The translations under genes and the position numbers were made by a program. 64,000 nt of DNA from Thermogemmatispora tikiterensis (GTDB lineage: Bacteria > Chloroflexota > Ktedonobacteria > Ktedonobacterales > Ktedonobacteraceae): NCBI RefSeq assembly GCF_003268475.1, contig NZ_MCIF01000002.1, positions 5,811,088 through 5,875,087 of the forward strand. Direction: 5' to 3'. Every line of letters starts with the position of its first letter. Position 1 is the stretch's first letter. Below the pieces are notes generated by a model that was not told the origin of the DNA, did not search any database, and worked only from the letters and a program-made list of their open reading frames with translations. Shown here one piece after another: positions 16,740 through 27,905 of the stretch.

Positions 16740-16813
16740 CTGTGCTTTACCTCCTCAAGACCGGCTCTCAGACTCTCTGACGGCGACAGCGCATTTTTTC
16801 GGCAGATATTTCG

Positions 16814-16842
16814 ATAATAGCACACTGAAATACAGCAAGCAA
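16814..16842 (-). promoter_or_regulatory. Promoter of methyltransferase 2
   Basis: Read on the minus strand: TTGCTT (16842-16837), 17 bases, TATTAT (16819-16814) with an extended TGC. The AT-rich patch contrasts with the surroundings. Confidence 0.65.
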
Positions 16843-17056
16843 GTAGAATGGCTCGGCGGCCCCCGGCTAGAGGTCGCAGACAGAGCCGGGTAAGGGCGAT
16901 ACTCTCCTGGGGAGCGACTTGGCTACGTCGTCACTGCCTTGCTGGCTGTTTGGACGCCTTATCTGACGGCAGCTATCCTGCTGATCTCTAGAGCAACAAC
17001 GACTGCGAGCCTACCCGCTGAGGAAGCTGTCGACGCTATGCTAGCGTCGGCCTGGC

Positions 17057-17086
17057 TTGACGCTCCTCGAGGTAGGTGGCTATACT
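17057..17086 (+). promoter_or_regulatory. Promoter of MutS-like operon leader
   Basis: TTGACG at 17057-17062, 18 bases, TATACT at 17081-17086. A perfect 8-base hairpin CGACGCTA/TAGCGTCG (17031-17049) stands just upstream. The predicted transcript starts near 17093 and carries a 440-base leader with the fluoride riboswitch. Confidence 0.7.
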
Positions 17087-17141
17087 GAAAAGAGATACGG
17101 CCTCTCAACACGAGGAGGCTGGAGAACAAAACAACTACATA

Positions 17142-17238
17142 GCGATGAGGCCCGCATACCGCCGACTGGCTAAGTGCTGCCCCGTGCTTTCTGTCGAAGG
17201 GAGCAGGGTGGCCAGGCCAGGAGGCTGATGGCTTCTAC
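17142..17238 (+). promoter_or_regulatory. Fluoride (crcB) riboswitch A, long P2, before MutS-like pair
   Basis: Elements of the crcB aptamer occur in order. P1 is GCG/CGC closing the loop ATGAGGCC (17142-17155). The linker ATACC follows. P2 is GCC (17161-17163) with GGC (17223-17225), then TGAT and GGCTTCTAC (17226-17238). The pseudoknot pairs GAGGCC (17147-17152) with GGCTTC (17230-17235), with one G-U. P2 is extended by an unusual arm of about 60 bases: an internal GA/GA loop, CTGGC/GCCAG, then a further imperfect stem. The 3' strand GGCTTCTAC is shared with a downstream terminator, as expected for a transcriptional ON switch. Identification is by motif recognition only. Confidence 0.8.
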
Positions 17239-17302
17239 TCATGGCCTTGGGTGCGCTGGCGCGTGCCGGTGCGCGGCTGGCTGAGGGGTAGGAGCCATTT
17301 TT
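17230..17302 (+). terminator. Switch terminator of riboswitch A
   Basis: GGCTTCTACTC (17230-17240) pairs with GGGGTAGGAGCC (17285-17296) through G-U pairs, followed by ATTTTT (17297-17302). It competes with the aptamer pseudoknot, so ligand binding should prevent termination. Confidence 0.7.
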
Positions 17303-17535
17303 GTCGAAACCTGCTTGCTGCCTGCCAGCACTGCCTGCCTCGTCTATCGTGCGCGCCGCGCCGTCAGGACCAGGCGCTGGCGCATTCTCCCTCTGTTTCA
17401 GCCACGCTGGCGCCCCTGCGAGACAAGCTCGTCCCCAAGGCGTTACCCCTTCTCTCGAAGAAGCTTCTACTCCTCATCAGAGCAGAAGGTCGAGACACCT
17501 GAGTATCTGTACTGTACTGGAGGCTTGTCTCACAC

Positions 17536-19071
17536 ATGGTTTTTCGCAGTATCCTGTTTGCTGACAGCGAGCAAGGTCAGCAGGCCGAGGCCAACCCCGT
17601 GCCCGCCTGTTTCAGCGACCTCCAGCTTGAACGTATCATCGAGTCGATCACGACCCCGAAAGAGGATTATCGTCTCAGACCTTTCTTCTACACGCCTCTG
17701 CGCGATCTTGATCTCATCGCCTATCGTCACGAGGTCATGCGCGATCTCGAGAAGCCGGAGGTTTTTGCCCTGCTCGATCAATTTTCGAAGCACATGCGTA
17801 CGATGCACCGCTACCGGGAGCAGGCGCAGAAGCTCTACTACCGTTATCAGCAAGAACGCTGGTGGCTCGACGCCATTGACCAGTATTGTCAGGCGCTCGT
17901 CACTTTGACCCAGGGTTTGAAACAGCTCCCTATCGAGTCACGCGGCCTGCAGGCTTTCCTGAGCTATCTTCAGGACTACCTGACCTCGCCCGCCTTTCTG
18001 GCCCTGCAGCAGGAGACGGAGGCCCTCAAGGAGGCCCTGGCTCAGGTCCATTACTGCCTGCACATCAAAGGCGACGCTGTTACTGTGCGGCTCTATGCTG
18101 GCGAAGAGGACTACAGCGCTGAGATTGAGGCAACCTTTGCCCGCTTCAAACAAGGAGCAGTCAAGGACTACAGCGTCAGGTTGATCGATTGGCAGGAGAT
18201 GAATCACGTTGAGGCTCAGATTCTCGAACGGGTGGCCCGTCTCTATCCCTCGGTGTTTGCTCAGCTCGATGATTACTATCTGCGCTATCAGCGGTATCTC
18301 GACGAGACCATTGCGCGCTTTGAGCGCGAAATCCAGTTCTATCTGGCCTATCTGGAATACCTGGCCACCTTCCGGCGGCGTGGTCTCCCCTTCTGCTATC
18401 CTCTGCTCTCTCTGGAGGAGAAAGCATCGGCTGCCGAGGACTGTTTTGACCTGGCATTAGCTGACCTCCTCCTACGCGAGGGGGGCCAGATTGTCACCAA
18501 TAGCTTTGCCCTCGCTGGGCGGGAGCGCGTGCTGATCGTCACCGGTCCTAATCAGGGGGGAAAGACCACCTTCGCGCGCGCAGTAGGTCAGCTATACTAC
18601 CTGGCCTCCCTTGGCTGCCCTGTGCCTGCTCGCAGCGCTCGCCTCTTTCTTCCCGACCGCATCTTCACCCATTTTGAACGCGAGGAACAGATTGAGAATC
18701 TGCGTGGCAAGCTGGAGGATGACCTTGTCCGTCTGCGGACTATCCTGAAGCAGGCCACTCCGGCCAGCCTCATCATTCTCAATGAGATTTTCACTTCCAC
18801 AACGCTGCAGGATGCCCTCTTTCTCTCGCAGCAGATCCTGCGCCGCCTGCTCGCTCTCGATGTCCTTGGCGTCTGGGTGACCTTCCTCGATGAGCTGGCT
18901 TCCTACAGCCAGCAGACGGTGAGCATGGTGGCCGAGGTTGATCCGGGCGATCCGGCGCGCCGCACATTTCGCGTCTTGCGTCGTCCAGCCGATGGCCTGG
19001 CCTATGCCCTGGCCCTGGCCCAGAAATATCGTCTGACCTCTGCCTGTCTCAAGGAGCGACTGCCAGCATGA
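17536..19071 (+). CDS. MutS-like ATPase, first of pair
   Basis: A 511-residue protein with the MutS C-terminal ATPase and part of the helical lever/clamp, but without the N-terminal mismatch-recognition domain of true MutS (about 850 residues). Walker A is GPNQGGKT (337-344). The Walker B region near residues 410-417 reads LIILNEIF, with Asn-Glu instead of the usual Asp-Glu. The middle region is mostly helical. The function is unknown; it is unlikely to read mismatches by itself. GGAGG 12 bases before the ATG supports the start. The stop overlaps the next start by four bases (ATGA), so the two proteins are probably made together and may form a heterodimer. The operon is led by fluoride riboswitch A. 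Confidence 0.85.
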   Translation: MVFRSILFADSEQGQQAEANPVPACFSDLQLERIIESITTPKEDYRLRPFFYTPLRDLDLIAYRHEVMRDLEKPEVFALLDQFSKHMRTMHRYREQAQKLYYRYQQERWWLDAIDQYCQALVTLTQGLKQLPIESRGLQAFLSYLQDYLTSPAFLALQQETEALKEALAQVHYCLHIKGDAVTVRLYAGEEDYSAEIEATFARFKQGAVKDYSVRLIDWQEMNHVEAQILERVARLYPSVFAQLDDYYLRYQRYLDETIARFEREIQFYLAYLEYLATFRRRGLPFCYPLLSLEEKASAAEDCFDLALADLLLREGGQIVTNSFALAGRERVLIVTGPNQGGKTTFARAVGQLYYLASLGCPVPARSARLFLPDRIFTHFEREEQIENLRGKLEDDLVRLRTILKQATPASLIILNEIFTSTTLQDALFLSQQILRRLLALDVLGVWVTFLDELASYSQQTVSMVAEVDPGDPARRTFRVLRRPADGLAYALALAQKYRLTSACLKERLPA

Positions 19072-20594
19072 AGGTACATTTGCTCTATCGTGACCGTGAC
19101 CTTGACGTCACGCAACCGTTGCCACGTCATGCCGCTGACCTCATCCAGGACCTGGAGCTAGAAACGGTGCTCAATGCGATGGCCCGCGGCGACCGTTTCG
19201 TATTTGAAACAGCCAGGAGAGTGATCCTCTCCAGCCTTGTCAGCGATCTGGAGACCGTCCGCTATCGGCAGGCTGTGCTAGAAGACTGTCTACGCCAGCC
19301 GGCCCTGATTCGCACCCTCTATCAGCTTACCATTGAGGCCCAGGAGAGCGAGCGCAAAGCTTCTTTCATTTTTTTCAAAGATCCCAGTCTCATTCTCATG
19401 CGCTCGGTTCAGATTCTGGAACTGCTCTTCGCGGTCTTGCGTAAGCTACGCGCGATTGCTGACGAGCAGACAGAGACCTTTTGCTCCGAAGGCTTGCGTG
19501 AACTGTGTGCTATGCTGCAGCGCGAGCTAAGTGATGACTATCTCGCGCGTATTGAGGAACACCTGCGTGAGCTGCATTTTCGCGATGGCGTGCTACTCAG
19601 TGCGCGCCTGGGCCAGGGGAACAAAGGCCGAGATTATACGCTGCGCCGTGCTGCTGCTCCGCAAGGCCCGTGGTTCAGCCGTCTCCTGAGTCGAGGAAAG
19701 CGAGCGCCGGGCTACACCTTCCGCATTCCCGAGCGAGATGAGGCCGGCGCACGGGCCTTGTCGGAGCTGCGCAACCGCGGCCTCAATCTGGTGGCCAATG
19801 CCCTGGCGCGTTCCACTGAGCACATCTTGAGCTTCTTCGCACTGTTGCGCCGCGAGCTGGCCTTTTATGTCGGCTGTCTCAATCTGGCTGAGGAGCTCGC
19901 CGGGCGCAAGCTGCCGTTCTGTTTCCCTACAGTGGCGCCGACGGAGGAGCAGCGTCGCACCTTCGAGGGCCTCTATGATCCCGCTCTGGCCCTCACGCAG
20001 CGGACGGCCATCGTTGGCAACGATGGCCATGCCGATGGCAAACGTCTCATCCTCATTACGGGGGCTAATCGGGGGGGAAAGTCCACCTTTCTGCGCAGCC
20101 TGGGCCTGGCACAGCTCCTGTTGCAAAGCGGCATGTTTGTACCAGCGCGCGCCTTCCACGCCAGTCTCTGCAATGGTCTCTTCACCCATTTTCGCCGACG
20201 CGAGGATGCCACGCTGAAGAGTGGGAAGCTTGATGAAGAACTCAACCGCATGAGTGCTATTGTCGACGATATCAGGCCACATGCCCTGCTCCTGCTCAAC
20301 GAATCCTTTGCGGCCACCAATGAGCACGAGGGGAGCGAGCTGGCCCACCAGATAATAACGGCTCTGGTTGCGCATGGCATCACTGTCTGCTATGTGACCC
20401 ATCTCGCTACCCTGGCCCGTCGTTTCGCGCAAGAGCATCGACCTGAGATGCTCTTCCTACGTGCCGAACGCCTGGCCGACGGCAGGCGCACCTTCCGCCT
20501 AGTGGAAGGGGAACCGGAGGAGACAGGCTATGCTCGAGATCTCTATGCCCGCGTCTTTGCCTCTGACCTGGAGATAGAGGCGAAGCCCGGCTGA
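19068..20594 (+). CDS. MutS-like ATPase, second of pair
   Basis: A 508-residue relative of the preceding protein. It has a helical N-terminal half, then a MutS-type ATPase with Walker A GANRGGKS (332-339) and Walker B LLLLNESFAATNEHEGSE, again with Asn-Glu. The LNE and the following TNE/EGSE segment mark the MutS-like subfamily rather than MutS1 or MutS2; no Smr nuclease domain is present. A hydrophilic insertion (GRDYTLRRAAAPQGP to KRAPGYTF, about 185-225) is absent from the partner. It is translationally coupled to the upstream gene by a 4-base overlap. Role unknown; DNA repair or DNA remodelling under fluoride stress is inference from the riboswitch alone. Confidence 0.85.
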   Translation: MKVHLLYRDRDLDVTQPLPRHAADLIQDLELETVLNAMARGDRFVFETARRVILSSLVSDLETVRYRQAVLEDCLRQPALIRTLYQLTIEAQESERKASFIFFKDPSLILMRSVQILELLFAVLRKLRAIADEQTETFCSEGLRELCAMLQRELSDDYLARIEEHLRELHFRDGVLLSARLGQGNKGRDYTLRRAAAPQGPWFSRLLSRGKRAPGYTFRIPERDEAGARALSELRNRGLNLVANALARSTEHILSFFALLRRELAFYVGCLNLAEELAGRKLPFCFPTVAPTEEQRRTFEGLYDPALALTQRTAIVGNDGHADGKRLILITGANRGGKSTFLRSLGLAQLLLQSGMFVPARAFHASLCNGLFTHFRRREDATLKSGKLDEELNRMSAIVDDIRPHALLLLNESFAATNEHEGSELAHQIITALVAHGITVCYVTHLATLARRFAQEHRPEMLFLRAERLADGRRTFRLVEGEPEETGYARDLYARVFASDLEIEAKPG

Positions 20595-20722
20595 GGAGCA
20601 ACTAGCCGAGAGAGATGAGTGAGAGAGGGAAAGGAGCCTGCGATCGGCCAGTACGCCAGGGTAGAGGGCTGGCTTGGCCCTTTCAGACGTCCAAGGGCAG
20701 GCAAAAGAAGGAAAGAAGGAAG

Positions 20723-20764
20723 GGGAAAGCCGCCCCTCAATGGCCCCAAAGAAGCGGCTTTCCC
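20723..20764. terminator. Hairpin at end of MutS-like operon
   Basis: An 11-base perfect inverted repeat GGGAAAGCCGC (20723-20733) and GCGGCTTTCCC (20754-20764), 20-base loop, 130 bases after the stop. It may terminate the operon. It also lies in the path of minus-strand transcripts leaving riboswitch B. Confidence 0.5.
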
Positions 20765-20783
20765 AAAGCCAACCTCGGCCCAC

Positions 20784-20835
20784 AAAAAAAGGCTTCTACT
20801 CAACACGGCTCCATATGCCGTGCTGGGTAGAAGCC
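20784..20835 (-). terminator. Switch terminator of riboswitch B
   Basis: On the minus strand a 19-base arm at 20835-20817 (begins GGCTTCTACCC) pairs with 20809-20791 (ends GTAGAAGCC), loop of 7, then seven T at 20790-20784. The 5' arm contains the pseudoknot strand of the aptamer. Confidence 0.85.
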
Positions 20836-20870
20836 ATCAGCCTTGCGGCGGTAAGCGGGCTTCATCGCAG
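20826..20870 (-). promoter_or_regulatory. Fluoride (crcB) riboswitch B, minus strand, no target gene found
   Basis: Minus-strand order: GCG/CGC P1 closing ATGAAGCC, linker TTACC, P2 GCC-GCAA-GGC, TGAT, GGCTTCTACC. The pseudoknot is GAAGCC with GGCTTC, six perfect pairs. This is nearly the textbook crcB aptamer. It has its own promoter and terminator but points into the 3' end of the MutS-like operon. The minus-strand sequence to about 20500 contains only short frames without ribosome sites and no Fluc/CrcB-like protein. Confidence 0.88.
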
Positions 20871-20893
20871 GTTGTCTTGTACTTCCTGGAAGG

Positions 20894-20922
20894 ACAATAG
20901 CACAGTGGCGGAAATCTGTCAA
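20894..20922 (-). promoter_or_regulatory. Promoter of riboswitch B transcript
   Basis: Minus strand: perfect TTGACA (20922-20917), 17 bases, TATTGT (20899-20894) with an extended TGC. It is the strongest promoter match in the region and is divergent from the promoter at 20950. Confidence 0.8.
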
Positions 20923-20949
20923 GAGCAGGTTGGAAAAAGAAGCGGTTCC

Positions 20950-20978
20950 TTGTTTTACGCACTGCGATGGGCTATACT
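20950..20978 (+). promoter_or_regulatory. Promoter of riboswitch C / MoxR operon
   Basis: TTGTTT at 20950-20955, 17 bases, TATACT at 20973-20978. Transcription should begin near 20985, about 20 bases before the aptamer. The two divergent promoters lie 27 bases apart. Confidence 0.75.
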
Positions 20979-21002
20979 ATACCAGTACTGAACAACTGAT
21001 AC

Positions 21003-21056
21003 ACGGCGATGAAGCTCGCCGTATAGATCGCGCCAGTCGGCGCTGATAGCTTCTAC
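21003..21056 (+). promoter_or_regulatory. Fluoride (crcB) riboswitch C before MoxR operon
   Basis: P1 ACGGCG/CGCCGT (21003-21008, 21017-21022) closes the loop ATGAAGCT. The linker is ATAGATC. P2 is GCGCC-AGTC-GGCGC (21030-21043). TGAT follows at 21044-21047, then AGCTTCTAC (21048-21056). The pseudoknot pairs GAAGCT (21011-21016) with AGCTTC (21048-21053), six perfect pairs. The layout matches the fluoride aptamer element by element. A terminator that reuses CTTCTAC follows directly, indicating transcriptional activation on ligand binding. Confidence 0.92.
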
Positions 21057-21091
21057 ATCCTCTCTTGCCAGAGGCTGTAGAAGTTTTTTTT
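21050..21091 (+). terminator. Switch terminator of riboswitch C
   Basis: CTTCTACA (21050-21057) pairs with TGTAGAAG (21076-21083); inside, CCTCT pairs with AGAGG across one mismatch; loop CTTGCC. Eight T follow (21084-21091). The 5' arm overlaps the pseudoknot strand. Confidence 0.9.
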
Positions 21092-21139
21092 ATGGTGCCG
21101 GGTGCTGAGGTATCCAGTAAACAAGGGAAGTATTGCTCT

Positions 21140-22162
21140 ATGGAATGCAGAGAAGAAAGAGCCTCACGAGTTAACTTCGGCCTGCAGGAGCTGGCCGTCA
21201 GACTGCGGAGCAACATCGCGCGCGTCATCGTTGACAAAGAAGCCGTTATTGATCTGCTGCTTGTGGCCCTGCTCAGCGACGGGCATGTGCTGCTAGAGGA
21301 TGTCCCCGGCGTTGGGAAGACCTTGCTGGCGAAAGCTCTGGCACGTTCACTAAACCTGAGTTTTCAGCGCATTCAGGGGACACCCGATCTCTTGCCTGGC
21401 GATCTGACAGGCATTTCCTACTTCGATCAGCGCAGCAGTAGGTTCGTCTTTCGTCCCGGCCCCCTCTTCAGTCATGTTGTCCTGGTCGACGAGATCAACC
21501 GGGCGACCCCACGTGCGCAGGCGGCCCTGCTCGAGGCGATGGCTGAGCGGCAGATCACGATCGAGCGCGAGACACGGCCTCTTCCCCGACCCTATCTGGT
21601 GCTGGCAACGCAGAATCCAGTTGAGCTGGAAGGGACTTTTCCCCTCCCAGAGGCTCAGCTCGATCGTTTTCTGATGCGCCTGCCGCTGGGCTATCCCAGT
21701 GAAGAGGCCGAGCTGGCTCTGCTTCAGCGTTTCAGAGAGGCCGAGCCGCTGGAAGAGCTGGAGCCCGTAGCCGACGCGGAGGCTATTCTCCGGGCCCAGC
21801 GTGAGATTCGTCGTCTCTACTGGCAGCCTGAAGTCGAGCGCTATCTGCTGACCCTGGTACGGGCCACACGCAATCATCCAGCGATCAGTCTGGGCGTCAG
21901 TCCGCGTGGAACCCTGGCTCTCCAGCGAGCCAGCGCTGCCTACGCCGCCATTCATGGACGCGACTACGTGCTACCGGATGATATCAAGCGTCTGGCCCCT
22001 GTCGTGCTGGCTCATCGCCTGATGCTGACAACGCGTGGGCGTCTGCGGCATCAGGACGCGGAGCAAGTGTTACAGGAAATTCTGGAAAACACAGCGGTTC
22101 CGGTCGAGACTCCTGACCTGACAGCTCTCTCTCGGCGGAGCGCAAGGAGCGAGCGCCCATGA
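21140..22162 (+). CDS. MoxR family AAA+ ATPase
   Basis: A 340-residue MoxR-type AAA+ ATPase thought to act as a chaperone for activation of partner proteins. It has Walker A DVPGVGKTLLAKAL, Walker B VLVDEINRA, sensor ATQNP and GTFPLPEAQLDRF, followed by the C-terminal lid typical of the family. The ATG at 21140 has AAGGGAAG 9 bases upstream. Earlier in-frame starts (21092 and the frame open from 21065) fall in or against the riboswitch terminator and are rejected. It is first in a three-gene operon with a DUF58 protein (4-base overlap) and a membrane DUF4129 protein, the usual MoxR neighbours. Control by fluoride riboswitch C is the odd feature. Confidence 0.92.
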   Translation: MECREERASRVNFGLQELAVRLRSNIARVIVDKEAVIDLLLVALLSDGHVLLEDVPGVGKTLLAKALARSLNLSFQRIQGTPDLLPGDLTGISYFDQRSSRFVFRPGPLFSHVVLVDEINRATPRAQAALLEAMAERQITIERETRPLPRPYLVLATQNPVELEGTFPLPEAQLDRFLMRLPLGYPSEEAELALLQRFREAEPLEELEPVADAEAILRAQREIRRLYWQPEVERYLLTLVRATRNHPAISLGVSPRGTLALQRASAAYAAIHGRDYVLPDDIKRLAPVVLAHRLMLTTRGRLRHQDAEQVLQEILENTAVPVETPDLTALSRRSARSERP

Positions 22163-23562
22163 GCGATACGGCACTGTTACAACAGATGGCGCGCGAGACC
22201 CTGCTCAAGCGTCGTCCCTGGCTGGTTCTGGCTGTGGCCCTCTTCTTGCTGAGCGCCGTCAGCCGGCAGTCGCTGGTCTTCCTGACGGCCCTCTTTGCGC
22301 TGATTTGCGCTCTGGTGCCAGAGCTGTGGTATCGGCGCGCCTTGCAGCACTTGCGGCTAGACCTGGAGCTGGATCGCCGCACGCTCCCTCTTGGGGAGGA
22401 GCTTGGGCTCACCCTGAGCGTTGAGAACCGCAAGCTCTTGCCCTTGCCGTGGTTGGAAGTCGAGATCGAGATTCCCGCGCAACTGCCGCTCTTAAGCGGG
22501 CGCAGCCTGCCTAGCTATAAAGCTCAGCGGGCCTTGCTTGTCAACACGCTGGCCATCTGGTGGTTTCAGCGTGTCAGGCGTCGCTACCGGTTGTCCTGTC
22601 CCCAGCGGGGTGTCTACAGTCTGGGGCCAGTCATGGTGCGCACCGGCGATCCCTTCGGCTGGCTCATTCGCCAGGAACAACTGAAGCAGCAGGTGCGGCT
22701 ATTAGTCTATCCCCTGGTGGCTCCGCTCGAAGACTTTGGACTGACGCCCCTGGCTCCTCTTGGGATGCAGACCTCGCTGCTGCGCTTGCTGGAGGACCCT
22801 CTGCGCTTCGCCGGGGTGCGCCCCTACCAGCCAGGCGATGACCCCCGCTACCTGCATTGGAAAGCCAGCGCCCGTGGGGCTGGTCTCTATCGCAAGGTCT
22901 TTGATCCTGCCAGCACGGCGCGCCTGCTGTTGGTGCTTAACATCAATACCTTTCGTGAGCCGTGGATGGGCATTGACGTTGATCTGCAGGAGTGGCTTAT
23001 CAGCTTGACGGCCTCGCTGGCCGTCTGGGCCTTGAAAGCCGGCTACCAGGTTGGTCTGCTGGTCAACAGCCTGTTGGCACCCTGGGGCGACGATGAGAAC
23101 GAGCTGGAGGAGGGGCGTCAACTGGTACGCAGCGCCGAAGCCACCTATCATGCACGCGTCACGGTGCCCTGCGCGCGGGGTAGCGAGCAGGAAAGGCGCC
23201 TGCTCACCGCTCTGGCACGTCTCCTGCCCTACATGGGAGCGGCCATCGATCCCCTGTTAGAGCAAGAAGCACTGCCTCTGTCAACAGGGGGCACGCTGGT
23301 CCTCGTCTGTGCCGCCGCCGTCCTGCAAGAGAGCACCATCGAGCGGCTGCTAGAGCTGCGGCGCTCGGGGAGAGCGGTGCAGCTGGTGCTCTGTGGTGAA
23401 GGAGATGAGCGGGCTGAGGCGGCGCTGGCGCAGGCCGCTGGACTGATTCCTGTGCAACATATTCGAGGAAAGGAGCAATGGCATGAGCTGCTCCAGATGG
23501 CTGATATGGAGAAGAGGAGGCGAACGACATCACAGTCCGGGCAGCCCGTCCAGCTGGCTTGA
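22159..23562 (+). CDS. DUF58 domain membrane protein
   Basis: A 467-residue partner of MoxR ATPases. Two hydrophobic helices occur near residues 20-55, then a beta-rich region (about 60-180), then the DUF58 signature near 225-245 (RPYQPGDDPRYLHWKASAR), leading into a von Willebrand A-like fold. Such proteins are proposed to work with MoxR in cell-envelope protein assembly or stress responses; the exact role is unknown. It starts at the ATG overlapping the moxR stop (ATGA) and overlaps the next gene by about 80 bases, supporting coupled translation. Confidence 0.88.
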   Translation: MSDTALLQQMARETLLKRRPWLVLAVALFLLSAVSRQSLVFLTALFALICALVPELWYRRALQHLRLDLELDRRTLPLGEELGLTLSVENRKLLPLPWLEVEIEIPAQLPLLSGRSLPSYKAQRALLVNTLAIWWFQRVRRRYRLSCPQRGVYSLGPVMVRTGDPFGWLIRQEQLKQQVRLLVYPLVAPLEDFGLTPLAPLGMQTSLLRLLEDPLRFAGVRPYQPGDDPRYLHWKASARGAGLYRKVFDPASTARLLLVLNINTFREPWMGIDVDLQEWLISLTASLAVWALKAGYQVGLLVNSLLAPWGDDENELEEGRQLVRSAEATYHARVTVPCARGSEQERRLLTALARLLPYMGAAIDPLLEQEALPLSTGGTLVLVCAAAVLQESTIERLLELRRSGRAVQLVLCGEGDERAEAALAQAAGLIPVQHIRGKEQWHELLQMADMEKRRRTTSQSGQPVQLA

Positions 23563-25036
23563 GCGCCTGGCTCTGCCACTGAGCGTCACCTTGATGGAGG
23601 CCCAGCCGACCAGTGCGCTACTCCTTGTGGCTGCAAAGCTCTTGGAAGGCAGGCCGTTATTGCCCTTGCTTCTCTTCCCACAAAGCGACTGGCTGGCCTT
23701 TCTTGGGGGGCTGATTCTGCTCTGGTGGGCGCGCTCTGTCGAAGTCTGGACTGAACAACGGCCAGCGCGCCAGCGCTGGCGCGCTCCGGCCAGACTGCTG
23801 CCCTTGGCACTGGCTCTGGGAGGTGTTTGGGGACCACTGCTGCCACAGCTACTGGTGGGCCGATTCCTGGTCGATTTTTCCCTGGCTGCCTTGCTCCTCG
23901 TCTGGCTCTGGCGCCGGGCTTTGGCGCGGGCCCGTCTCGGCTTTGAGCATGAAGCGCTGACGCGCTCCTTCCGCCTGGGTTTCCTGGCGCTGCTGGCTAG
24001 CCTGATGCTGGCCCTATTGGCCCCCTGGCGCGACCTGCTGGCCGTCCTCAGTCTGACGCTGCCACTCTTCTTCTTCTCTGGCCTGCTGACGCTCTCGCTG
24101 GCACGTCTGAGCACGATTCGCCGCCAGCGTCTGCGTCGCGCCGGGGATACGGGCGCCGTTGCTGATCCGACACGCCCCTGGCTGCTGGCTTTGGCCCTCC
24201 TCTCTCTCCTGATCCTGCTGCTGGTAGCCCTTCTGGAGACAATCTTTTCGTTCGTTACGTTTCAGGCCGCGATCACGCTGCTCACTCCTGTTGTCGCCAG
24301 GGCCTGGGATTGGGTAAGCGAGGTCCTCCTCTGGCTCATCGTCCTCATCCTGACGCCTTTCTTCGATCTCTTTGCTCTTGTCGTGGCCGCAGTGCGTCGT
24401 GAAGGACCGGCCTCCGCTCCCGTCCTGATTTCGCCAGCGACTCTGCGCCGCCAGTTGCTGACACAGCAAGGACAGAGCCATCTCTCTGTGCCGCCGCTCC
24501 TTCTCATGGGTGGGCGTCTGCTCTTGCTTCTCCTGATCATCGGCGGTCTCCTCTGGCTTGTAATCCGCGTTGTCCATCTTGGACGCTGGCAATCCCTTGT
24601 ACCCGAGGTCGAGGAGGAACGCGAGATGCTCAATCCGCTGGCACTCCTCGGCGAACGTCTGAGACAGAGGCGGGGTCAGCGTCGAAGGCGAGTCTTGATA
24701 GAGCCGCTGCCACCAACCTCGCTGCGCTGGCTCTACCGGGCCTGGCTGCAGGATCTGGCTGCCCGTGATCGGACATGGGTACGTCATCCAGCAGAAACGC
24801 CACAAGAATATCTGGCGCGCCTTCGCACTTCGCTTCCGGCAACGACCTCAACTCAGCAATTGGTAGAGTTCGGGGACCAGCTCACGCAAGCGTACCTGCC
24901 CGAGCGCTACGGCGGTCAACCCGCTGAAGCGGGACGACTGGCAGCTCTCCGGCAATCCTGGAAGAAACTGCACACTTCCCTCTCGACCCGAGGCGGTCGA
25001 TTTGATGATCGACAGAAAAGCGAAGGTCCATCTTAA
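23483..25036 (+). CDS. Polytopic membrane protein with DUF4129 C-terminus
   Basis: A 517-residue protein with seven or more hydrophobic segments between about residues 40 and 370. It ends in a cytoplasmic or external DUF4129-like domain (WLYRAWLQDLAARD, HPAETPQEYLARL, LPERYGG; about 415-500). DUF4129 domains normally close transglutaminase-like proteins of MoxR operons; here the transglutaminase catalytic domain itself is missing. The ATG at 23483 has AAAGGAG 7 bases upstream but lies inside the DUF58 gene; ATG 23594 is an alternative with no ribosome site. It is the last gene of the fluoride-switch operon. Function unknown. Confidence 0.8.
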   Translation: MSCSRWLIWRRGGERHHSPGSPSSWLERLALPLSVTLMEAQPTSALLLVAAKLLEGRPLLPLLLFPQSDWLAFLGGLILLWWARSVEVWTEQRPARQRWRAPARLLPLALALGGVWGPLLPQLLVGRFLVDFSLAALLLVWLWRRALARARLGFEHEALTRSFRLGFLALLASLMLALLAPWRDLLAVLSLTLPLFFFSGLLTLSLARLSTIRRQRLRRAGDTGAVADPTRPWLLALALLSLLILLLVALLETIFSFVTFQAAITLLTPVVARAWDWVSEVLLWLIVLILTPFFDLFALVVAAVRREGPASAPVLISPATLRRQLLTQQGQSHLSVPPLLLMGGRLLLLLLIIGGLLWLVIRVVHLGRWQSLVPEVEEEREMLNPLALLGERLRQRRGQRRRRVLIEPLPPTSLRWLYRAWLQDLAARDRTWVRHPAETPQEYLARLRTSLPATTSTQQLVEFGDQLTQAYLPERYGGQPAEAGRLAALRQSWKKLHTSLSTRGGRFDDRQKSEGPS

Positions 25037-25190
25037 CGGATCGTAGTCGACCTGGGAGCTGGCAGCGCCAGCGCATGGACGGCAGTAGGGGGGAGAACCG
25101 GCAGAGGGCCGGGCCCAGGTGAGCAGGCGGCGCGAAGAAAGGCCGCCCATCTCTACCTGTGCTCGGCCCTGGGTGGCTCACGGCTCCAGT

Positions 25191-27905
25191 CTAGGAGCTG
25201 ACGGAGTCCGCCTCAGCTCCAGCAGGATAGGGTAGGCGCCAGCGATGGGTACCGCTGCCCACCTCGGCAGCGGGCTGCTGGCGGCCCGGCAGGATGATGC
25301 TGGCTGTCGTGTTGGGCGGGACCACGACCGTCAGCTCAAAGAGACCATCGACAAGCTGCCAGCGGACTTCCGCCTGACCGTAGGGGGTACGCAGGCGAGC
25401 CTCAGCTCTGGTCAGGCCGCCGCCCGGCAGCGGGCGCACCAACAGCCGGCGATAGCCCGGTGCCGCGGGCGCCAGACCTGCAACCGTACGATGCAACCAG
25501 TCGGCCACCGAGCCGAGAGCATAGTGGTTAAAGGAAGTCATCTCGCCAGGATTGACCGAACCATCGGGCAGCAGGCTGTCCCAGCGCTCCCAAACGGTTG
25601 TTGCTCCCATTGTGACCGGATAAAGCCAGGAAGGACACTCACGCTGCAGCAGCAGGCGGAAAGCAGCCTCAGCGGCTCCAACACTGCAGAGCGCATCACA
25701 GAGCAAGGGTGTGCCGACAAACCCTGTGCACAGGTGATAGTCCTCAGCCTGCACCAGCTCCACCAGGCGCCGGCCCGCAGCCTGACGCAGCTCCTCATTC
25801 TCCAGCAGGTTGAATTGCAAGGCCAGGGCGTAGACAGTAGGGGCATCGCTGAAGATGCGCCCATCGGGGCTAACGTAGGCTTGTCGGAAAGCTGCCCGCA
25901 CCTGGGCGGCCAGCTCTCGATAGCGCGCCTCCTCCGCGCGCAGGCCCAGCACACCCGCCGTCAGCGAGACGATCTCGGCTGAGCGAGCAAAGTAGGCCGT
26001 TGCCAGAACCTCTGGCGCCGCGCGCGCCGCCGCTGGCTTCTCTGGCGGGGCCGCCGGATCAAGCCAGTCGCCGAATTGAAAGCTCCCACGCCACAGATGT
26101 TCCGCGCCGGCCAACCGATCGATCAGATCGACCCAGGCCCGCATACTGGGAAATTGCCGCCTCAGCAGCTCGCTATCGCCATAGCGTTGGTAGAGCGTCC
26201 ACGGCACCAGCACAGCGGCATCACCCCAGGCTGCCACCGGCAGCAGTCGCCCCTCTGGCAGAGCTGGGATGCGCCGCAAAATATCGGGCACCACGAATGG
26301 GACAATGCCCTCCGGCGTCTGCTCGCTGGCCAGATCGCGCAGCCAGGAAGAGAGAAAACCGGCGCAATCGTAGAGGAAACAGGCCGTCGGCGCAAAGATC
26401 TGAATGTCGCCTGTCCAGCCGAGGCGCTCATCGCGCTGGGGGCAGTCGGTCGGAATAGACAGGAAGTTGCCGCGCATGCTCCAGACGACATTGTCATGGA
26501 AGCGGTTGAGCAGCGGCTCCGAGCAGCTGAACCAGCCCGTGCGCTCCAGATCAGAGTGACAGATCACCGCCTGGATGTCATCAGCCTGCAGCGAGCCGGG
26601 CCAGCCCTTGACCTCGGCATAGCGGAAGCCGTGGAAGGTAAAGCGCGGCTCCCAGATCTCAAGGCCGCCGCCGCGCAGAATGTAGCGATCGGTCGCCCGA
26701 GCGGTGCGCAACGGGCGGGTGCACAGCTCGCCCTCCTGGAGAATCTCGGCGTGACGCAGCGTAATCTGTTGCCCTGCCTCGCCGCGCACACGCAGGCGCA
26801 GCCGCCCAACCACATTCTGCCCGAAATCGAGGATCGTGCGCCCGCTCGGGGAGGTTAAGATGGCCTGCGGCGCCAGGAGGGCGATGCGTCGCACTGGTGG
26901 CCCCTCGGGGGCGGCCAGCCGTGTCAGGTCCCACTCCAGCAGACGCACATCTTGCCAGGCGCGATCGTCGTAGCCCGGTTCAGACCAGCCGTCCTGTTCC
27001 AGGCGCGCATCATACTCCTCGCCATCGTAGAGGTCGCTGGCGCGGATAGGGCCAGTGCTGGCGCGCCAGCTCAGATCGGTGACGACGCGCTCACAGCGTC
27101 CATCGGCGTAGTATAGCTCTAGCTGGGCCAGCAGCCCCAGACGCTCGCCATAGAGATTACGCCCTCCGCCGTGAAAGCCGAGGCGCCCACGAAACCAGCC
27201 GTCGCCCACGATCGCCCCGATAGCGTTGCGCCCCTCGTGCAAGAGCGCCGTCACATCAAAGGTCTGGTAAAGCAGGCGCTGATCGTAGCTCGTCCAGCCG
27301 GGGGCCAGCACCTGATCGCCGACAACCTGCCCATTCAAGTGAGCCTCATAAACGCCAAGGGCTGTGATGTAGAGGCGGGCCGCCGCCAGCCCTGGCGCCA
27401 CCTCGAACTCGCGGCGCAGGAATGGCGCCGGTTGCGGGCGCGTCGTATCCTCATCCCAGTCGGGTGTAATAAAGCGCGCCTCCCAGTCGGAAGGCTGCAG
27501 CAGCCCAGCCTCCAACGTGACCGGCGCGCTCCAGGGCGAGCGGCTACCATCCTGCCCCTCGACACGCACCCGCACCTGTAAACGCTGCCGCGAGTGCAGG
27601 GGAGCAAAGGGCCAGGGCACCAGCACCGACTCAGCCGAGCGCAGCAGGCCGCTGCTCGCCCAGAGCTGGCCAGCGGCGTCATACGCCTCGATCTCATAGC
27701 CAGCCTGACGCCAGGCGGGACGCTCCGTCTCGACCATCCAGCTCAGGCGGGGGCGCTCGGCACCCAGGCCCAGGACCTCCGACTCTGTATGATATTCAAT
27801 CCGGACTCGACGGATGTACAGCGCCGCCTCTCTCTCTGCTCTAATCTCGGCGCCAGCGGCCTGCGCCGGATCGTGTTCGTACTGATCTCCTTCGCGATCG
27901 GTCAT
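25191..27905 (-). CDS. GH78 alpha-L-rhamnosidase
   Basis: A 904-residue enzyme that removes terminal L-rhamnose from pectic or flavonoid glycosides. Order: N-terminal beta domains including the Bac_rhamnosid_N region (about 150-330), the (alpha/alpha)6 catalytic barrel (about 440-780) and a C-terminal beta domain. Visible family motifs are SIPTDCPQRDERLGWTGD, the catalytic-region FGDWLDP, and TTVWERWDS. No signal peptide is seen, so it acts in the cytoplasm on imported oligosaccharides. AAGGAG 6 bases before the ATG supports the start. It is last in an operon after the binding protein and two sugar permeases, which points to rhamnoside uptake and hydrolysis. Confidence 0.93.
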   Translation of the reverse strand: MTDREGDQYEHDPAQAAGAEIRAEREAALYIRRVRIEYHTESEVLGLGAERPRLSWMVETERPAWRQAGYEIEAYDAAGQLWASSGLLRSAESVLVPWPFAPLHSRQRLQVRVRVEGQDGSRSPWSAPVTLEAGLLQPSDWEARFITPDWDEDTTRPQPAPFLRREFEVAPGLAAARLYITALGVYEAHLNGQVVGDQVLAPGWTSYDQRLLYQTFDVTALLHEGRNAIGAIVGDGWFRGRLGFHGGGRNLYGERLGLLAQLELYYADGRCERVVTDLSWRASTGPIRASDLYDGEEYDARLEQDGWSEPGYDDRAWQDVRLLEWDLTRLAAPEGPPVRRIALLAPQAILTSPSGRTILDFGQNVVGRLRLRVRGEAGQQITLRHAEILQEGELCTRPLRTARATDRYILRGGGLEIWEPRFTFHGFRYAEVKGWPGSLQADDIQAVICHSDLERTGWFSCSEPLLNRFHDNVVWSMRGNFLSIPTDCPQRDERLGWTGDIQIFAPTACFLYDCAGFLSSWLRDLASEQTPEGIVPFVVPDILRRIPALPEGRLLPVAAWGDAAVLVPWTLYQRYGDSELLRRQFPSMRAWVDLIDRLAGAEHLWRGSFQFGDWLDPAAPPEKPAAARAAPEVLATAYFARSAEIVSLTAGVLGLRAEEARYRELAAQVRAAFRQAYVSPDGRIFSDAPTVYALALQFNLLENEELRQAAGRRLVELVQAEDYHLCTGFVGTPLLCDALCSVGAAEAAFRLLLQRECPSWLYPVTMGATTVWERWDSLLPDGSVNPGEMTSFNHYALGSVADWLHRTVAGLAPAAPGYRRLLVRPLPGGGLTRAEARLRTPYGQAEVRWQLVDGLFELTVVVPPNTTASIILPGRQQPAAEVGSGTHRWRLPYPAGAEADSVSS

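Follow-up and report, generated by a model that had tools for sequence, protein, structure and literature searches.

An orphan fluoride riboswitch convergent with a MutS-like operon in Thermogemmatispora: a candidate fluoride-gated noncoding or antisense unit

When considering a fluoride riboswitch that is followed by no gene, a simple question has to be asked: what, if anything, does such a switch control? Fluoride riboswitches usually precede a gene, as part of its 5' UTR, placement being no part of the definition of the aptamer itself. The switch considered here, RS2, lies on the minus strand of a 64,000-nt stretch of the Thermogemmatispora tikiterensis genome (hereafter, the window), between an operon for two MutS-like proteins (MutSab) and an operon for a MoxR ATPase, DUF58 and DUF4129 proteins. 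Below we describe RS2 and its surroundings, reconstruct its likely origin, weigh the possible explanations of its persistence, and compare it with known systems.

Three fluoride riboswitches around two operons

The features of the locus, with their coordinates in the window, are as follows.

16757..25235, strand not assigned: fluoride block of 8.5 kb, present in T. tikiterensis, T. carboxidivorans PM5 and Thermogemmatispora sp. HOG59
17132..17302, plus: RS1, long-loop fluoride riboswitch with terminator (aptamer 17132-17244), leader of the MutSab operon
17536..19071, plus: MutSa, MutS domain V protein of 511 aa
19068..20594, plus: MutSb, MutS domain V protein of 508 aa, its 3' end facing RS2
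20706..20770, minus: second strong hairpin, 3' of the RS2 terminator, with a C/U-rich, moderately U-rich tail (fold -35 kcal/mol)
20784..20922, minus: RS2 transcription unit (promoter, aptamer and terminator), the orphan fluoride riboswitch
20784..20835, minus: RS2 intrinsic terminator (5' arm 20835-20817, 7-nt loop, 3' arm 20809-20791)
20821..20878, minus: RS2 aptamer (RF01734, 33.2 bits)
20894..20922, minus: RS2 promoter, TTGACA-17-TATTGT (-35 at 20922-20917, -10 at 20899-20894)
20996..21091, plus: RS3, fluoride riboswitch with terminator (aptamer 20996-21062, 31.1 bits), leader of the MoxR-DUF58-DUF4129 operon
21140..25036, plus: operon of the MoxR ATPase, DUF58 and DUF4129 proteins, under RS3

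The initial annotation of this DNA described RS2 as a complete minus-strand fluoride riboswitch, and so it proved: the aptamer covers the full RF01734 model (positions 1-64) at E = 2.8e-7 in an 800-base search and 5e-7 genome-wide, which, together with the score of 33.2 bits, rules out a chance match. This score is 0.8 bit below the gathering cut-off of the family (34 bits), and the Rfam scan of the window at gathering thresholds came out empty, all three switches scoring below the cut-off. The promoter given in that annotation is present in the sequence and was also recovered by an independent promoter search, and the terminator has the stem of 19 positions described there (including one G.U and one C.A mismatch), followed by seven T (A-run 20784-20790). 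The segment GGCTTCTAC serves both as the pseudoknot strand of the aptamer and as the 5' arm of the terminator, the terminator being the free fold. In the fluoride riboswitch family, the overlap of pseudoknot and terminator underlies ON logic; since the pseudoknot strand of RS2 doubles as a terminator arm, fluoride should permit readthrough and, judging from the family, RS2 should be a fluoride-ON transcriptional switch. The second hairpin, which is a mediocre terminator, is a possible end of the readthrough RNA. An Rfam match to SMCR2_1 at 20553-20721 was dismissed as chance (19 bits vs a cut-off of 50).

RS2 is divergent from RS3, and both operons that flank it are led by fluoride riboswitches. 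The earlier picture of the locus thus stands as far as RS2 is concerned, but RS1 and RS3 had been overlooked, which alters what the locus means. RS1, with a promoter at 17057-17086 (plus strand), retains the fluoride core and the terminator, carries a 58-nt loop insertion in its aptamer, scores 18.0 bits against RF01734, and recurs in both PM5 and HOG59. Long-loop fluoride aptamers of this kind (another is found at locus L001) can score poorly or escape the Rfam model, so that the number of fluoride switches in this group is underestimated.

The missing gene

On the minus strand below RS2, before the convergent MutSb, examination of the open reading frames and of Pfam matches revealed no Fluc, no ClC-F and no convincing gene, in agreement with the initial annotation, which had also correctly noted that RS2 points away from the MoxR operon into the 3' end of the MutS-like operon; the distance from the T-run to the MutSb stop codon is 190 nt. 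RS2 departs, therefore, from the usual placement in a 5' UTR, a departure that concerns placement and not the aptamer. The same orphan arrangement is seen in PM5 and HOG59, both of which likewise lack a gene in the interval corresponding to 20594-20784, the comparison that had been proposed as a check. Among the 118 fluoride-switch sites surveyed in Chloroflexota, the RS2 locus, with its copies in these two genomes, is the sole clear case without a codirectional gene, under a criterion (an ORF of at least 60 aa within 700 nt) that is liberal in GC-rich DNA, such that rare orphans may be missed. Most of the other apparent orphans had CrcB, DUF190 or Na+/H+ antiporter genes masked by spurious opposite-strand ORFs; flagged cases were resolved on inspection or ran off a contig.

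Comparison with related genomes suggests how this state came about. The syntenic site in a fourth Thermogemmatispora genome (G022) consists of ~350 bp between methyltransferase and rhamnosidase genes; as the block is missing there in its entirety, it behaves as a unit. Counting beyond the aptamer, the closest leader to RS2 outside the locus is that of the unk615-LTXXQ operon, with 72% identity over 105 nt, and the similarity extends to the post-terminator GTGGGCCG. This operon occurs in PM5, in HOG59 and in genome G020, and is absent from T. tikiterensis. In turn, unk615 resembles unk572 (37%) and LTXXQ resembles unk174 (42%), and in G002, a member of another genus, unk572 and unk174 share an operon with DUF190-CBS and two CrcB genes that has a riboswitch leader and lies directly after MutSab. 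At locus L058, from Xanthobacteraceae, MutSab and a dynamin gene with a riboswitch leader are convergently arranged. The likeness of the leaders, taken together with the relatives that adjoin MutSab and CrcB in G002, indicates that a fluoride-defence gene has probably been lost. The junction is common to T. tikiterensis, PM5 and HOG59, which places the loss before the split of the species. The simplest history is, probably, that a convergent fluoride-defence gene once separated MutSb from RS2 and disappeared by deletion in the common ancestor of the three; judging from leader similarity and the order of neighbours, it would most likely have been an operon of the unk615/unk572 type, the kind that accompanies CrcB in G002.

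Thus, among the three options raised in the initial annotation (loss of an exporter gene, antisense readthrough, an active short RNA), gene loss has the best comparative support, from leader likeness, gene order in G002 and L058; an antisense or active short RNA would best explain why RS2 has stayed intact afterwards. A coding remnant was not found in 20594-20720, and within 20580-20785 neither nucleotide nor protein comparison gave a convincing remnant of unk615, LTXXQ, CrcB or other island genes. No further copy of the post-terminator block turned up in the family.

The island in G002 (contig C30, L034/L035) holds ten fluoride riboswitches within ~30 kb, several of them paired back to back in divergent orientation, and these lead Na+/H+ antiporter, complex I-like, dynamin-like, MutSab, CrcB and MoxR operons. 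At L034:12272-12672 (minus strand), two fluoride switches of the same orientation, ~260 nt apart and separated by sequence that contains a long perfect inverted repeat, precede a Na+/H+ exchanger; they may be two switches in tandem, or one may be a further unit without a gene. T. tikiterensis has its own DUF190-CBS, DUF190, CrcB, CrcB operon (L050, C2:5029.7-5032.4 kb), with no fluoride riboswitch detectable in the 1 kb around the operon start.

Conservation and possible present roles of RS2

Has RS2 been maintained since the loss of its gene? HOG59 is ~99% identical to T. tikiterensis, and PM5 is 94% identical in MutSb. Between T. tikiterensis and PM5, none of the 64 functional positions of RS2 (hexamers, aptamer core, terminator end) has changed vs 17 of the 80 positions in the rest of the unit (p = 2.7e-5), functional positions having been marked by motif after the alignment was viewed and the comparison being in effect one divergence (T. 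tikiterensis/HOG59 vs PM5). The promoter hexamers are accordingly invariant, with a spacer of 18 in PM5, and the substitutions in the terminator stem mostly preserve pairing. The pattern matches that of RS3, which leads an operon (1/53 functional vs 25/87 other positions changed); for RS1, the corresponding counts, 2/49 and 23/217, do not differ significantly. Synonymous divergence of MutSb from PM5 is 0.12-0.15, and the MutSb-side flank of RS2 is only ~13% diverged. We consider these data good, not conclusive, evidence that RS2 has been under selection since gene loss.

The likeliest reading, to which we assign a probability of about 0.55, is that RS2 is a fluoride-ON former leader of a lost gene that selection has retained as a noncoding or antisense unit gated by fluoride. 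In the absence of fluoride, the RS2 RNA would be ~104 nt long and end at 20784; with fluoride, readthrough would yield an RNA of ~165 nt ending near 20722, at the second hairpin, or running further. The readthrough RNA would be antisense to the 3' UTR of MutSab and, possibly, also to the 3' end of MutSb, and might limit MutSab output, or readthrough toward MoxR, via convergent transcription or duplex formation. Going by its position, RS2 may exert an antisense effect on MutSab. However, RS1 should induce MutSab in fluoride, and it would be odd if a fluoride-induced antisense RNA opposed it, which counts against the antisense reading. Tentatively, the two opposing ON switches can be envisaged as an incoherent feed-forward loop that would produce a pulse or a ceiling of MutSab and insulate MoxR from readthrough.

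Ranked second, and in our view rather unlikely, is the explanation that RS2 is a passive relic, its target gene deleted, the switch useless and its decay merely pending. The signs of a lost gene (leader similarity, related operons) and the lack of any gene downstream fit this explanation, as do the modest divergence of the carriers (dS ~0.17) and the overall 9% divergence of RS2, which is not far below that of the MutSb-side flank. What speaks against mere delay is the distribution of the changes, which, at a neutral divergence of 13-15%, would leave all functional positions untouched with a chance of ~1e-4, and the shared junction, by which the loss is older than the species split. It is still less probable that RS2 makes a trans-acting small RNA with the second hairpin as its working part: the loop and 3' arm of this strongly folding hairpin are identical over ~43 nt between T. 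tikiterensis and PM5, with flanks that differ by 13-33%, but the block is found nowhere except at this locus and could equally serve the 3' end of the MutSab mRNA on the opposite strand. Finally, control by RS2 of a small unannotated protein is very doubtful: although the only long ORF below RS2 (94 aa) starts directly after the terminator T-run, with a start codon that is kept (GTG, ATG in PM5) and a frame that is open in both genomes across an in-frame 12-nt deletion, it lacks a Shine-Dalgarno sequence, it runs into a frameshifting indel of 4 nt further on, its second half is antisense to MutSb, its substitutions are near noncoding (pN 0.142 vs pS 0.199; codon-position counts 10/5/10), it was not found outside the genus and, like the other small ORFs below RS2, shows neither a Pfam match nor a clear coding signature.

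Relation to known riboswitches and to the fluoride regulon

RS2 shares with the fluoride riboswitch family (crcB motif, RF01734) the conserved aptamer core, the reuse of the pseudoknot strand as a terminator arm and a promoter of its own, and differs from it in the lack of a codirectional gene and in a score just below the gathering score; the known regulon of CrcB, Na+/H+ antiporter and MutS accompanies these switches here as well. Antisense-acting riboswitches are a known category, exemplified by the SAM switch at ubiG-mccB-mccA of C. acetobutylicum and the cobalamin switch at pocR of Listeria (PMC9943018). To be recognized as such, a switch has to lie no more than 500 nt from the 3' end of a gene on the opposite strand and be transcribed toward that gene, and a 2023 survey counted 9 antisense fluoride switches vs 1,446 sense ones (PMC9943018). 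RS2, 190 nt from MutSb and directed toward its operon, takes the same position as the SAM and cobalamin switches. Those switches, however, are ligand-OFF, whereas RS2 is predicted to be ligand-ON, and, unlike in the precedents, its putative target, MutSab, has a fluoride-ON leader of its own. If true, an operon with an ON switch for the same ligand at each of its two ends, in opposed directions, would be new. A conserved riboswitch that outlived its gene would show a route to ligand-gated noncoding or antisense RNAs, namely, gene loss beside a convergent operon, and the locus offers a simple test case, with two switches and one ligand, in cultured bacteria, as it is present in T. carboxidivorans PM5.

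The occurrence of crcB-motif RNAs upstream of mutS has been described (Weinberg et al. 2010, PMC2864571); RS1 similarly heads a MutS-like operon, and differs by its long loop insertion and poor Rfam score. In genomes of Peptococcaceae, Xanthobacteraceae and Chloroflexi, MutSab is immediately preceded by a fluoride switch, and in one of Thaumarchaeota it is immediately followed by one; a literature search joining fluoride riboswitch and MutS matched no paper. MoxR/DUF58 operons with a fluoride switch were found in four other genomes (G002, G124, G264, G394), and a search for fluoride riboswitch and MoxR returned nothing but an unrelated oral-bacterium genome paper. The fluoride regulon is thereby extended to MoxR-DUF58-DUF4129 operons in several Chloroflexota genomes. 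Besides 20996-25036 of the window, operons of this type under fluoride riboswitches were noted at L100, L105, L143 and L035, in several Chloroflexota families.

The MutSab pair is rare, with 12 loci confirmed in 84,980 species genomes (L054-L060), some of them merely distant MutS matches, and these loci span distant phyla, including a Thaumarchaeota MAG. Such rarity combined with phylogenetic scatter suggests that MutSab has spread by horizontal transfer along with the fluoride regulon.
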